The translations under genes were made by a program, and so were the position numbers. Shown here piece by piece: positions 21,995 to 37,834 of a DNA stretch of 40,058 nt; position 1 is the first letter of the stretch, and every line of letters begins with the position of its first letter. Origin of the DNA: Bacteroidales bacterium (lineage in GTDB: Bacteria; Bacteroidota; Bacteroidia; Bacteroidales; JAFGXI01); assembly GCA_027064025.1 (NCBI GenBank), contig JAMOQL010000192.1, positions 1 through 40,058 of the forward strand, read 5' to 3'. The notes beneath the pieces were generated by a model, which searched no databases, was not told the origin of the DNA, and saw only the letters and a program-made list of their open reading frames with translations.

Positions 21995-23848
21995 TTACCA
22001 TCTTCCATCAGTAACCATATATCCATCTCTTCGAACAGTCATTATATTCTCAAAAGAATCGTCTACTTTATTAACATTAATTAAATAAAGCGATTTAACA
22101 ATTCTATTTGCAACAGCTTCGGCAGTTAAAACATCTTCTTGATTAATTTGCTGACGAGCCATAAATATCTGTTTAGAATTCAACTGCTCAGTCATTCCTG
22201 TTTGTACAATTCCAGGCATATAATACACCATTCGTAAATCTTTCGAAAAAGCTTCCCAAGAAGCACTTGCTGCAAAACCGTGCAGACTTCTTTTAGCAGA
22301 AACATAAGCCGATGACCCAGAAAATTGTGCATCTTCGGCAGCAGATCCGACAAAAATAACTGTTTCTTTTAGGTTTTCGAATAAAGACTGATAAATGTAT
22401 ACTGGTGTGGAAAAATTAAGCTGTGTTACTTGTTTAAGATCTTCAGATTTCACATCTAAAGCAGAACTCAAAGCGCCACTAACCCCAGATGCAATAATTA
22501 GATAATCTAATGTAGGGTATTTATTCTTAACATCTTTGACAAAAGATTCAACACTTTTTTTATCTGATAAATCTGCATAAAAAGATTTCAAAGATGAAAC
22601 TGTTTTTTTTAAATCACTTAATTTATTCTTATTTCGATATTGAACCAGAATATTTGCACCTAGTTGGTCGAGCTTTTTAACAATTGCAGAGCCTAAGCCA
22701 CCTGTAGCCCCCAATACTAAGACGTTTTTATTTATTAATTCCTGACTAGATTTAGGGACTAACTTTTCTTTTTGTGGAACAATGTATGTAAATGATCCAT
22801 ATTTCCCTCCAACACCAGCTGTAGAACTTAAGATTTTCATACCTTCTTTTAATCTATCTTCTTTATTTAACAAAGATAAAGAAAGCAAAACAGTAGAGCC
22901 AGATACATTTCCAAACTGTTTTTGAGCCTCTAAATACATTTTGTCTAAAGGCAATTCTAATTTGTTTGCCGCATCAATCAAAATAGCATTTCCTGTTTGG
23001 TGTGGTACTGCCAAATCTATATCGGAAACCTTCCAATTGGTTTTTGAGAGGATATTATTCGACGATTTAACAATATTATCGATAGCTCTATCTTTAATAA
23101 TACTTTCCCCCATATAAAGATTCCACGACTTGTCAACACCTACAAAATCTATCATTTTTAAGTCTTGAAAATTTTCAACAGCTAATAAGCCCTCATTTTC
23201 CTCTCCGTCAACCTTACTAAGAATAATAGCGCCTGCCCCATCTCCAAAAGTTACAAAAGAAACAAATTTAGACTTTTCGGTCAAAAAGCTAGTCATAGTT
23301 TCGGTATGTGAAACCAAAACGTGCTTGGCATCTGAGTGAACTTGCAAATACTCTAAAGCTCTCTCCAAATGCAAGTTAAAACCTGAACAACCAGAGGTCA
23401 AAGAAAAAGCTGGTGCTAAATTATTTTTATCTACAAAATACGTTTTAATAGTTGCTGCTATTCCAGGGGCTTGTTCATGTGGCGATACCGTTGATACAAA
23501 CCAAGCATCTATTTCCGATGGTTTGATATTACAATCTTTAAAAGCATCGTCGACTGCTCTAACAGCCAATTCTGTAGACGTTTCTGTTCGTAAATTATTT
23601 TTCTTTCTTGGAGGAAATGGCACAACGGTCTGCCTAAGCTCGAAGCCCATTTTATACTTTGCAAAGTAATCAAACGGAGAAACCCCTTCATGCGTTTCCA
23701 AAAATTTCTGATAATTCTTACTAGATAAAACTTTATCTTGATCGAATCCTCTTAAAAATCCCGATTGTGTTGCATTAAAAATATCTTGGTTACTAACCTT
23801 ATATTTACCTGCTGCATGTCCTATTCCTGAGAAAATATAATTTATCAT
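21995..23848 (-). CDS. Fusion: 3-oxoacyl-ACP synthase III (FabH-like) plus short-chain dehydrogenase/reductase (FabG-like)
   Basis: N-terminal half has Cys (SLTSGCSGFNLHLERALEYL), His (LAVPHQTGNAILID) and Asn (FGNVSGST). C-terminal half has Rossmann VLGATGGLGSAI and SDR catalytic YVSAKRSLHGF. One continuous 617-aa ORF. Confidence 0.88.
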   Translation of the reverse strand: MINYIFSGIGHAAGKYKVSNQDIFNATQSGFLRGFDQDKVLSSKNYQKFLETHEGVSPFDYFAKYKMGFELRQTVVPFPPRKKNNLRTETSTELAVRAVDDAFKDCNIKPSEIDAWFVSTVSPHEQAPGIAATIKTYFVDKNNLAPAFSLTSGCSGFNLHLERALEYLQVHSDAKHVLVSHTETMTSFLTEKSKFVSFVTFGDGAGAIILSKVDGEENEGLLAVENFQDLKMIDFVGVDKSWNLYMGESIIKDRAIDNIVKSSNNILSKTNWKVSDIDLAVPHQTGNAILIDAANKLELPLDKMYLEAQKQFGNVSGSTVLLSLSLLNKEDRLKEGMKILSSTAGVGGKYGSFTYIVPQKEKLVPKSSQELINKNVLVLGATGGLGSAIVKKLDQLGANILVQYRNKNKLSDLKKTVSSLKSFYADLSDKKSVESFVKDVKNKYPTLDYLIIASGVSGALSSALDVKSEDLKQVTQLNFSTPVYIYQSLFENLKETVIFVGSAAEDAQFSGSSAYVSAKRSLHGFAASASWEAFSKDLRMVYYMPGIVQTGMTEQLNSKQIFMARQQINQEDVLTAEAVANRIVKSLYLINVNKVDDSFENIMTVRRDGYMVTDGRW

Positions 23849-32713: not shown

Positions 32714-35356
32714 ATGGACAGTATTATTTATTTATTACCCCTAGCGGGAGTTGTCGGAATCTTATTTATGTTGGTTAAATCATCATGGGTCAAGAAACAA
32801 GACGAAGGTAATGAGAAAATGAGTATCATTGCCAAAAACATTGCTGATGGAGCAATGGCATTTTTGAAGGCTGAATATAAAGTGCTTTCTGTTTTTGTAG
32901 TTGCAGTTGCAATCCTCCTAATTTTTAAAGGAAACTCCGAAGCTAATTCAAGTGCTTTTGTTGGTTTATCTTTTGTGGTTGGAGCATTAATGTCAGCTCT
33001 AGCTGGTTTTATTGGAATGCGTATTGCAACCAAAGCCAATGTAAGAACAACTCATGCAGCCCGAACATCTCTAAATAAAGCTTTAGAAGTCGCTTTCTCT
33101 GGTGGAGCAGTAATGGGATTAGGTGTTGTTTCTTTAGGAGTAATTGGACTTTCTGTTCTTTTTATTTTATACAGTAATATGTATGATGTAAATACTACTG
33201 ACGGATTAACAACAATTTTAAATATTATCTCAGGTTTCTCGTTAGGAGCATCTTCTATTGCACTTTTTGCTCGTGTTGGTGGTGGTATTTATACCAAAGC
33301 AGCCGATGTTGGAGCTGACCTTGTAGGAAAAGTAGAAGCTGGTATTCCAGAAGATCATCCTTTAAACCCTGCTACTATTGCAGATAATGTTGGTGACAAT
33401 GTTGGTGATGTTGCGGGTATGGGTGCTGACCTTTTTGAATCTTTTGTAGGTTCTATTATTGCAACGATGGTTCTTGGGGCTGTATTCTTTAACATTCCTG
33501 AATTTGCATCATACAAATTGGGAGCTGTTATTTTACCATTAGCTCTTGCTGCAGCAGGTATTATAGTTTCTGTTTTTGGTACTTTCTTCGTTAAAGTAAA
33601 AGAAGGAGGGAATCCTCAAACAGCTCTAAATATTGGAGAATTCCTTTCGGCTGGTATTATGATTGTTGTTTCTTATTTTATGATTAATGCTTTTTTACCT
33701 GAAACTTGGAATTATAATGGAACAACATTTACTTCTTTAGGGGTATTTATTGCAACTATTGTTGGTTTAATAGCAGGTTTAGGTGTTGGTAAAATTACCG
33801 AGTATTATACAGGAACAGGAACAAAACCTGTTATGAGTATCGTAAAACAGTCTATTACAGGTCCTGCAACAAACATAATTGCCGGATTAGGTGTTGGTAT
33901 GATGTCAACAGCTATCCCAATTTTATTAATTGCAGCTGCTATTATCTTATCATTCCACTTTGCTGGTTTGTATGGTATTGCAATTGCTGCTGTTGGTATG
34001 TTAGCAAACACGGGTATTCAGTTAGCAGTTGATGCTTACGGCCCTATTTCTGATAACGCTGGTGGAATTGCTGAAATGGCAGAGTTACCTCATGAGGTTA
34101 GAGAAAGAACAGATAAATTAGATGCTGTTGGAAATACAACTGCTGCTATTGGAAAAGGTTTTGCGATTGCTTCAGCAGCCTTAACGGCCTTAGCTTTATT
34201 CTCTGCTTTTATGCAACAGGCTCATATCGATTCTATTGATATTGCTAAATCGACTGTAATGGCTGGTTTATTTGTTGGAGGAATGTTACCATTTGTATTC
34301 TCTGCACTTTCTATGAATGCTGTAGGTCGTGCCGCAATGGCAATGATTGAGGAAGTTCGTCGTCAGTTTAGAGATATTCCTGCTTTAAAAGATGCTTTAG
34401 AAGTTATGCGTAAATATGATTCAGATATGTCTAAAGCTACTCCAGAAGATAGAGAAATTTTTGATAAGGCTGATGGTGTTGCGGAATATGATAAATGCGT
34501 AGCTATTTCTACAAAAGCCTCTATTAAAGAGATGGTTTTACCGGGTTTGTTAGCTATTATTACTCCAGTTGCCATTGGTTTCTTAGGTGGCCCAGAAATG
34601 TTAGGTGGCTTATTAGCTGGTGTAACAGTCACTGGTGTATTAATGGCTATTTTCCAATCTAATGCAGGTGGTGCATGGGATAATGCTAAGAAAACTGTAG
34701 AAGAAGGTTTTGAACACGATGGTGTTAAATATGGAAAAGGTTCTGAAGTTCATAAGGCTGCCGTAGTTGGTGATACTGTTGGCGATCCTTTTAAAGATAC
34801 TTCTGGTCCTTCATTAAATATTTTACTTAAATTAATGTCTGTAGTAGCTTTAGTTATTGCTCCTACTTTATACCAAATTTGGGGTTCTGATACTGAAGCA
34901 GCTATTAATACTAAAGCAACAGTAGAAAATATTGATGTTACTCCAGAAACCTCCGTTTCTGTTGTAAATGGGAAGGTTGAAGCTGTAGTTACAGAAGAAG
35001 TTAAGAATTTAATTGTAAACAGAGAAGTAATGACAATTAAAGACCCTGCAAATCCTACTGATTTTGAATTGACACATACCCCAGAAATTACTTTCGGAGA
35101 TGTGAATAACGAAGGATTGGTTGAAGTATTTGTAAAAATTGGTTCTAAAGGTCATATTCATCCTAATACAAAAGATCATTGGATTGACATTGTTTCTATC
35201 TATGCAGGAGGTTTAGTAAGCTCTGAAAGATATACAAATAATAACAATACAGAATTTGGTCCATATTTTGTAAAAATTAAAAAAGGTGATATAGTAAAAG
35301 TAGCAGTAGGCTGTAATCTTCATGGATTCTGGTCTAACGAAGCCACTTATGAGTAA
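32714..35356 (+). CDS. hppA: K+-dependent-type membrane-bound ion-translocating pyrophosphatase with C-terminal superoxide reductase-like (desulfoferrodoxin Fe-binding) domain
   Basis: M-PPase motifs [87 protein letters not shown]-terminal extension [11 protein letters not shown]...[21 protein letters not shown]...[11 protein letters not shown] matches the SOR His4-Cys site. Confidence 0.95.
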
Positions 35357-35379
35357 TCTACTATTCTAAAGAGTTTATG

Positions 35380-35414
35380 ATGCTGCCTACAATAATTAGG
35401 CAGCATTTTTTTTT
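35380..35414 (+). terminator. Intrinsic terminator downstream of hppA
   Basis: Perfect 10-bp stem ATGCTGCCTA / TAGGCAGCAT (35380-35389 / 35397-35406) followed by a T-run. Confidence 0.92.
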
Positions 35415-35553: not shown

Positions 35554-35569
35554 TGAATTGGAAAGGAAA

Positions 35570-37834
35570 ATGAAAAAAACAATTGTATTAATTTGGGAAG
35601 TCCTACTCTTTATGGGCTCAACAGCACAATCTCTACAGGGAGTTGTAGAAAGTGCTGATGGAGAAAAACTATCATTTGTAAATGTGATTTTATCAGAACA
35701 AAATCGCTCAACAATTACAAATTCTGATGGTTTCTTTAAATTTCAAGAACTTAAAGCTGGAACATTTCATCTACAAATTTCTTTTGTTGGCAGGGCTACA
35801 ATTGAAAAAGAAATTGAACTTAAAGAAGATGAAATGCTAAATCTGGGCATATTAAAGATGCAAAATGCCCAATTCAAAACTGAGGAAGTCATTATTACAG
35901 CTACCAGAACAGCTCGCCCTCTCAATACCATTCCTGCATCCATAGAATACTTATCGGCAAAAGAACTACAAGCATTACCGATCCAAAAAATAGACGAAAG
36001 CTTAAAATACACATCAGGAATTTTTGTAGATCGTCAATTTGGAATTTTCGGAAAATCTGTAGTAACAATGCGTGGTGTCGTAAGTTCTGAACCAGGAAGA
36101 CAACTTACTTTAATAGATGGAATACCTATTAATAAATCTGATGGTGGTGGTGTAAATTGGAATAGAATTATTAATTCCGACATACAACATATCGAAGTAG
36201 TAAAAGGGCCTAGTTCGTCAATTTATGGGAGTAATTCTATGGGAGGAACCATTAATTTAATAACAAAAAGACCCAACAATAAAGTTTTATCAGGAACAGC
36301 AAAAACTTATTATGGCACCTACAATACATTCGGAGGCGAATTTTCGTTGATGGAAAAATTTTCGGATGAAAGCTCAGGTTTCTATTATGCAATTTCAGCA
36401 AAAGCATTACAAAGCAATGGATATAATACTGTGCCAGATAGCATTAGAGAAGGTTTCGACACCTTGGTATTTGTTCAAGAACAAGCGGCAAACGCTAGAA
36501 TTGGATATTTATTCTCAGATAATACTTTTTTAGAATTAGAATATAATTATTATAACGATCATAGAGGACAGGGCACAAGAATACAACTAAAGGATGGGAC
36601 GACTGCAGATTACGACACGCATTTTATTAAATCTAAATACAAAACACAGTTAGGGCAATTCGATATAGATATTAATGCTTTTTACCAACTAGAACAATAT
36701 CTTCGAACCATCGAGAAGATAAAAAAAGGGAATTACACTCTTATTAATGTACACTCAGACAGAGCCGATTACGGACTTTTAACATCGCTTAGCAGAACTT
36801 TTAATAAAAACAAAATTAGTTTAGGAGCTGATATACGAAATGGTTCTGTTTATGGTGTAGATGAATACCAAACTAGTACCGACAAAATCATTAACAAAGG
36901 CAAAATTAATCATCTAAATATATACTTACAAGATGAACTTAATATTAGTGGAAAATTAAAAAGTATAGGCTCTATACACTTTACCTACGTTAATTTTCAC
37001 GATGGTGCATTTTTAATAGAAGATGCTACTGGAATAAACGACTTTATGGTTAATGACATAGGAAACTTAGATGATAAATCGTGGAATGGATGGACACCCA
37101 GCATATCGTTGCAATACAATATTACCAAGCTGTTCAATATCTATACTGTTGCATCAAGCGGTTTTAGGACTGCTTCTTTAGACGATTTAACACGAACTGG
37201 GTTTATTAATATTGGATACAAAAAAGCCAATCCTTATCTTACCCCAGAAACCATTAATAATATTGAAATAGGAAGCCGGTATTCTTATAAGAAACTTTTA
37301 ACCACCGTTAATATTTATTATTCGCAAGGTTCTGACTTTATGTATTATGTTGCAACAGGAGAAAGCCTGTTTGGAGGCCGAAAAAAAATCTATCAAAAAG
37401 AAAACATTTCTAAAGTTGAGATATATGGAACTGAGTTATCAGCTCAATACAATTTAAAGCCATGGTTGAGTTTCAAGACTAATTATACTTACAACCATTC
37501 CAAAATAAAGAAATTTGAAGGCCGTTCTAATTTGGAAAATAAAACATTAACTTATAGCCCAAAAAACACCATTAATTTCACAACCATAGTTTCAAATAAA
37601 AAATGGTCATCATCGCTAAACGTACACTGGCAAGATCAAATCTTTTTAGATGAAGAAAATACTTTTTCTATTGATGCTCTAGTGGGATTAGATATTCGGT
37701 TAGCATATCAATTCTATAAAGGGTTCGGAACTGGATTAAACATACAAAATATTCTAGATGAACAACATATGGTTAGCTCAGATCAAGTTTCGTTGGGTCG
37801 GTTTATCACTTTTGAATTAAACTATAAATTTTAG
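35570..37834 (+). CDS. TonB-dependent outer-membrane receptor with N-terminal carboxypeptidase-regulatory-like domain
   Basis: Plug domain ...IDESLKYTSGIFVDRQFGIFGKSVVTMRGVVSSEPGRQLTLIDGIPINKSDGGG...VVKGPSSSIYGSNSMGGTINLITKRP; C-terminal beta-strand ending FITFELNYKF. ATG at 35570 preceded by AAAGGA. Confidence 0.93.
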   Translation: MKKTIVLIWEVLLFMGSTAQSLQGVVESADGEKLSFVNVILSEQNRSTITNSDGFFKFQELKAGTFHLQISFVGRATIEKEIELKEDEMLNLGILKMQNAQFKTEEVIITATRTARPLNTIPASIEYLSAKELQALPIQKIDESLKYTSGIFVDRQFGIFGKSVVTMRGVVSSEPGRQLTLIDGIPINKSDGGGVNWNRIINSDIQHIEVVKGPSSSIYGSNSMGGTINLITKRPNNKVLSGTAKTYYGTYNTFGGEFSLMEKFSDESSGFYYAISAKALQSNGYNTVPDSIREGFDTLVFVQEQAANARIGYLFSDNTFLELEYNYYNDHRGQGTRIQLKDGTTADYDTHFIKSKYKTQLGQFDIDINAFYQLEQYLRTIEKIKKGNYTLINVHSDRADYGLLTSLSRTFNKNKISLGADIRNGSVYGVDEYQTSTDKIINKGKINHLNIYLQDELNISGKLKSIGSIHFTYVNFHDGAFLIEDATGINDFMVNDIGNLDDKSWNGWTPSISLQYNITKLFNIYTVASSGFRTASLDDLTRTGFINIGYKKANPYLTPETINNIEIGSRYSYKKLLTTVNIYYSQGSDFMYYVATGESLFGGRKKIYQKENISKVEIYGTELSAQYNLKPWLSFKTNYTYNHSKIKKFEGRSNLENKTLTYSPKNTINFTTIVSNKKWSSSLNVHWQDQIFLDEENTFSIDALVGLDIRLAYQFYKGFGTGLNIQNILDEQHMVSSDQVSLGRFITFELNYKF

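Follow-up and report, generated by a model that had tools for sequence, protein, structure and literature searches.

A membrane pyrophosphatase carrying a C-terminal superoxide reductase-family domain in Bacteroidales

The fused gene and its surroundings

The window (the whole 40,058-nucleotide stretch of Bacteroidales DNA analyzed here) contains a forward-strand open reading frame that starts with ATG, has no internal stops, and encodes 880 residues, in which a membrane pyrophosphatase (M-PPase) runs on in frame into a superoxide reductase (SOR)-like tail, as the original prediction had proposed. The features of the gene, with the evidence for each, are:

32714–35356, + strand: fused gene, membrane pyrophosphatase with C-terminal exported-SOR domain (880 residues and stop); open reading frame and Pfam
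32750–34858, + strand: membrane pyrophosphatase core (H_PPase, residues 13–715); profile and motif alignment
34802–34885, + strand: TM16, the last transmembrane helix, predicted to run from the cytoplasmic catalytic site to the outside; model helix 678–724 and position of the catalytic motif
34886–35011, + strand: predicted flexible linker, residues 725–766; low model confidence
35063–35338, + strand: superoxide reductase (Desulfoferrodox) domain, residues 784–875; Pfam, AlphaFold2 model, and Foldseek
35072–35074, + strand: Thr787, where the other aligned exported SORs have Lys; alignment of 52 sequences
35075–35077, + strand: predicted iron ligand His788; alignment with the family and PDB SORs
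35159–35161, + strand: predicted iron ligand His816; alignment with the family and PDB SORs
35177–35179, + strand: predicted iron ligand His822; alignment with the family and PDB SORs
35312–35314, + strand: predicted iron ligand Cys867; alignment with the family and PDB SORs
35321–35323, + strand: predicted iron ligand His870, Asp in the homologue from genome G005; alignment with the family
35379–35407, + strand: intrinsic terminator 3′ of the fused gene, 11-bp stem and T run; strong

Pfam H_PPase matches residues 13–715 of the fused protein with 884.9 bits, and Pfam Desulfoferrodox (PF01880) matches residues 784–875 with 46.7 bits in the same whole-protein scan. Searched alone, the tail scores 51.3 bits against PF01880 (E 1.8e-13; curated cut-off 22.2), bearing out the proposed SOR-family membership; it also matches TIGR00332 (desulfoferrodoxin ferrous-iron domain) at E 3e-11, under the curated cut-off of that model, and, by phmmer, the Pyrococcus SOR 2hvb at E 6e-6. 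A PDB search with a profile of 52 relatives returned 16 distinct SOR sequences.

The fused gene is flanked by a divergent S-adenosylhomocysteinase gene on one side and a TonB receptor gene on the other, and, given this arrangement and the strong terminator, it looks monocistronic. Directly 5′ of the TonB-dependent receptor gene (35558–37834) lies a molybdenum/tungsten cofactor riboswitch (RF01055, 35446–35580, 44.4 bits), which suggests that this receptor is tied to Mo/W or Moco supply. Elsewhere in the window, a single open reading frame (21995–23848, − strand) joins a ketoacyl-ACP synthase III region to a C-terminal short-chain dehydrogenase region.

Fold and iron ligands of the C-terminal domain

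The AlphaFold2 model of the tail, built with the 52 relatives, is a β-sandwich with pLDDT mostly >90 within the domain, and the top 26 PDB matches to it in Foldseek are all SORs (probability 1.00); the next match, SoxYZ, is distant and far weaker. Together, the profile, PDB, and fold matches rule out a chance occurrence of the SOR motif. The ligand set of four His and one Cys anticipated by the original prediction (His788, His816, His822, Cys867, and His870) is complete and correctly spaced in the alignment.

A Glu-Lys pair immediately before the first His is absent from the window domain, and had been thought to be replaced by Leu-Thr. This holds for the lysine, which is Thr787 in the window domain and in no other of the 52 aligned sequences (ELTH versus ELKH or E-x-K-H in relatives); the glutamate, however, is not lost, but is displaced by one residue in every member of the exported-SOR family, whose motif is E-x-K-H. 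The missing Glu-Lys does not disqualify the domain from SOR membership, since natural SORs without the Lys (4bk8) or without the Glu (Nanoarchaeum equitans) exist. The wild-type SOR of Ignicoccus hospitalis (4bk8) has Thr24 where most SORs have Lys, like Thr787 of the window domain, and its T24K mutant is 4brj; the N. equitans enzyme reduces superoxide without the conserved Glu, according to the title of a paper cited in PMC9916283. Both neelaredoxins (1Fe-SOR; 4bk8 and 6gq8) share their fold and ligand set with the window domain, but are soluble stand-alone archaeal enzymes, whereas the window domain is the C-terminal module of a membrane pump. Judged by sequence and model, the tail is an SOR homologue with a predicted SOR fold and a putative superoxide reductase activity.

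Distribution, history, and constraint

A survey of homologues located the fusion in four genomes, all MAGs, of the window’s Bacteroidales family (the window’s own, G001, G004, and G005). The same type of junction in four genomes from different assemblies rules out an assembly or sequencing artefact. No SOR-pump fusion was found outside the family in sampled searches of the order (295 genomes), class (395), and phylum (395), nor among the 80 best-matching loci of a scan of ~85,000 species genomes, for which two short motifs were the query and 15 weaker matches were left out. A widespread fusion is therefore rejected, all cases in the sampled searches lying within this one family.

A separate signal-less SOR, presumed cytosolic, is encoded by all six genomes of the family. 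The fusion genomes have this copy and the fused copy only, without a stand-alone exported SOR; G003 has a pump (91% identical) with a plain tail plus a stand-alone lipoprotein SOR, and no pump was detected in G002. The window’s genome also encodes a second pump (contig C203), 86% identical, that ends in a Thr-rich tail without an SOR domain. In the SOR tree, all four fused domains group together in a single clade (87/83; recovered in 89% of bootstrap trees) nested in the stand-alone exported SORs. In the pump tree, the fused pumps do not form one clade, and a single gain traced on that tree is rejected. Loss, exchange between paralogues, or repeated gain may lie behind the scattered fused pumps, with the first two likely, given the grouping of the G005 pump with the unfused paralogue of the window’s genome.

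The stand-alone relatives occur, mostly in MAGs, in Bacteroidales and Saprospiraceae (Bacteroidota), Chlorobiota, and Campylobacterota. By pattern matching (rather than a signal predictor), an export signal is present in each of the 47 examined: 42 have Tat signals and five a lipobox without a twin arginine. These five comprise the G003 copy together with the group sister to the fused clade, a placement which implies that the fused lineage had already left the Tat route and fits Sec export behind a membrane protein. The stand-alone relatives, mostly twin-arginine proteins, resemble the TAT-SOR class (SORGOdb, PMC3116461), and the window domain shares with that class a single SOR centre-II domain and predicted periplasmic export. 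It differs from the class in its displaced Glu, its Thr in place of Lys, and its attachment to the end of a polytopic pump: the fused protein has no N-terminal twin-arginine signal, the criterion for TAT-SORs, and the domain comes after TM16.

It is very unlikely that the Fe(His)4Cys site serves some other role at the cell surface, for example in metal binding or in the chemistry of sulfur or NO, across the exported family and its fused members. The occurrence of the family mostly in MAGs from sulfur-cycling members of the Campylobacterota and Bacteroidota, the displacement of the canonical Glu throughout the family, and the weak fold similarity to SoxYZ would be consistent with such a role, but the core ligand motifs match SORs, the SoxYZ matches fall far below the SOR matches, and no conserved neighbor linked to redox or sulfur metabolism was found beside the stand-alone exported SOR genes.

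The fused domains have long branches in the SOR tree and are 47–52% identical in pairwise comparison, versus 79–85% for the cytosolic SORs and 80–91% for the pumps in these genomes, which points to weak constraint or a shifted function. In the G005 domain, the last His ligand is replaced by Asp (CSKDG where others have CNLHG) and the second His is no longer followed by Pro (HP to HK); its SOR activity is doubtful on account of these two losses. Taken with the missing catalytic Lys of the window domain, such divergence between close relatives could indicate that the domain has been degenerating since fusion and persists, with little or no activity, as neutral sequence added to a tail that was already extended. 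We consider this unlikely: all five ligands are retained in three of the four fused copies, the frame is open in four lineages, and residues at positions near-invariant in the stand-alone family are retained 90 of 96 times across the fused copies, compared with 42% over the alignment columns as a whole.

Pump topology, C-terminal modules, and role of the domain

In the pump core, the catalytic motifs DNVGDNVGD and [14 protein letters not shown] are intact (aligned with 4a01/6afz). The GNTTAA motif with Ala12.46 indicates K+ dependence, and Glu at 6.53 with Gly at 6.57 is the Na+-type arrangement (residue meanings from PMC6882861 and PMC10897367). The score against NF001955 (sodium-translocating pyrophosphatase) is 1200.7, with a cut-off of 1059. 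By these sequence features, the window pump is an intact K+-dependent, Na+-type M-PPase. The Thermotoga maritima enzyme (4av3), an M-PPase of the NF001955 type, has the same complete core with Ala12.46 and Glu6.53; in contrast, the window pump has ~155 extra residues past TM16, the SOR domain included.

In M-PPases, the catalytic motif at the start of TM16 is cytoplasmic. Because TM16 of the window pump begins at this motif and no helix follows, the tail beyond it should face outside, and the export signals of all 47 stand-alone relatives are evidence for a periplasmic location that does not depend on pump topology. On the strength of the single helix beyond the catalytic motif, these relatives, and the retention of the fusion across four genomes, the tail is predicted to face outward, in agreement with the original prediction. 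Residues 726–766 have pLDDT < 50 in the full-length model, so that the ~40-residue linker is predicted to be disordered and flexible.

Close homologues of the pump within the order end in acidic or Thr-rich tails of roughly 40–90 residues, and the 903-codon pump frame of G149 (contig C139) has a C-terminal YceI domain (PF04264, 122 bits). A class-wide search found frames of 850–950 residues in many pumps. Among 89 pump C-termini from Bacteroidia genomes (a best-match list plus three picked for length, making proportions approximate), eight end ≤10 residues past TM16, the tail is short in 40 and Cys-rich in 21, and the remaining 20 bear long modules, which Pfam assigns to YceI (15), OmpA (three), and FKBP_N plus FKBP_C (two). 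The Cys-rich tails often contain the repeat KCDMxKCxxMTxEECAxxCDxxxC (nine loci); those scanned had no Pfam match and are possibly a metal or thiol module. An OmpA-like C-terminal extension with no known role has been described on the M-PPase of Paucibacter (Burkholderiales) and its relatives (PMC11210485, PeerJ 2024). This enzyme, like the window pump, has an extra domain past the last helix, but the domain and the phylum are different, and that paper does not mention SOR, YceI, FKBP, or Cys-rich modules. It is the sole precedent for any such module that we found in the open-access literature, where nothing relevant to an SOR- or YceI-pyrophosphatase fusion was found; the SOR-pump architecture was likewise not known to the original prediction as a described one. 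What is new here is that the C-termini of Bacteroidia pyrophosphatases are a port for different periplasmic modules.

The original prediction had further suggested that superoxide or redox chemistry at the domain might be linked to ion pumping, a link that the evidence does not support. In one version of it the domain would be a redox, superoxide, or NO sensor that regulates PPi-driven pumping via TM16. The domain is attached straight after TM16, the bearer of catalytic and ion-gate residues, and its fast evolution and absent Lys would suit a non-catalytic role. We nevertheless regard a sensor as improbable, given the disorder predicted for the linker, the unchanged residues of the pump core, the 86% identical pump without the domain, and the unrelated modules or plain acidic tails that close homologues bear at the same place.

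Instead, the locus probably encodes a normal PPi-driven, Na+-type pump extended by an exported-SOR domain, for which the pump is a membrane anchor without coupling; we hold this reading with moderate confidence. We prefer an anchor to redox-pumping coupling in view of the flexible linker, the lipid anchors of the nearest stand-alone relatives, and the unrelated modules that occupy this position in other pumps. The reading starts from the homology, ligand set, and predicted fold of the tail, the single clade of fused domains, and the exported stand-alone relatives. The exported-SOR domain would have been joined to the outward C-terminus of the pump once within this Bacteroidales family. With TM16 leaving the membrane on the periplasmic side, the flexible linker would carry the domain, which would load iron in the periplasm and there reduce superoxide to peroxide, with electrons from a periplasmic donor, possibly sulfide or thiols in sulfidic habitats. 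The pump would act as an abundant inner-membrane anchor in place of the lipid anchor of an ancestral lipoprotein SOR, and the two activities would be mechanically uncoupled. Such a swap of anchors is supported by the unfused pump and lipoprotein SOR of G003, compared with the fused copy only in the fusion genomes; the fast divergence, the ligand loss in G005, the loss of Lys in the window domain, and the scattered fused pumps count against the reading as a whole.

More tentatively, the pump C-terminus in Bacteroidota may be an open port to which modules (SOR, YceI, OmpA, FKBP chaperone, and Cys-rich) have repeatedly been added, giving a multifunctional envelope-stress platform, with the window module an active SOR that shields the periplasmic side of the inner membrane.

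Fused genes of this kind are usually annotated as sodium-translocating pyrophosphatase only, and the open-access papers covered by our searches are silent on the C-terminal periplasmic modules that Bacteroidia pumps often carry, beyond the OmpA-like case. An ion pump whose outer face apparently carries an antioxidant iron site bears on the roles of M-PPases besides pumping, and on the handling of extracytoplasmic superoxide by anaerobes of sulfidic, intermittently oxic habitats.
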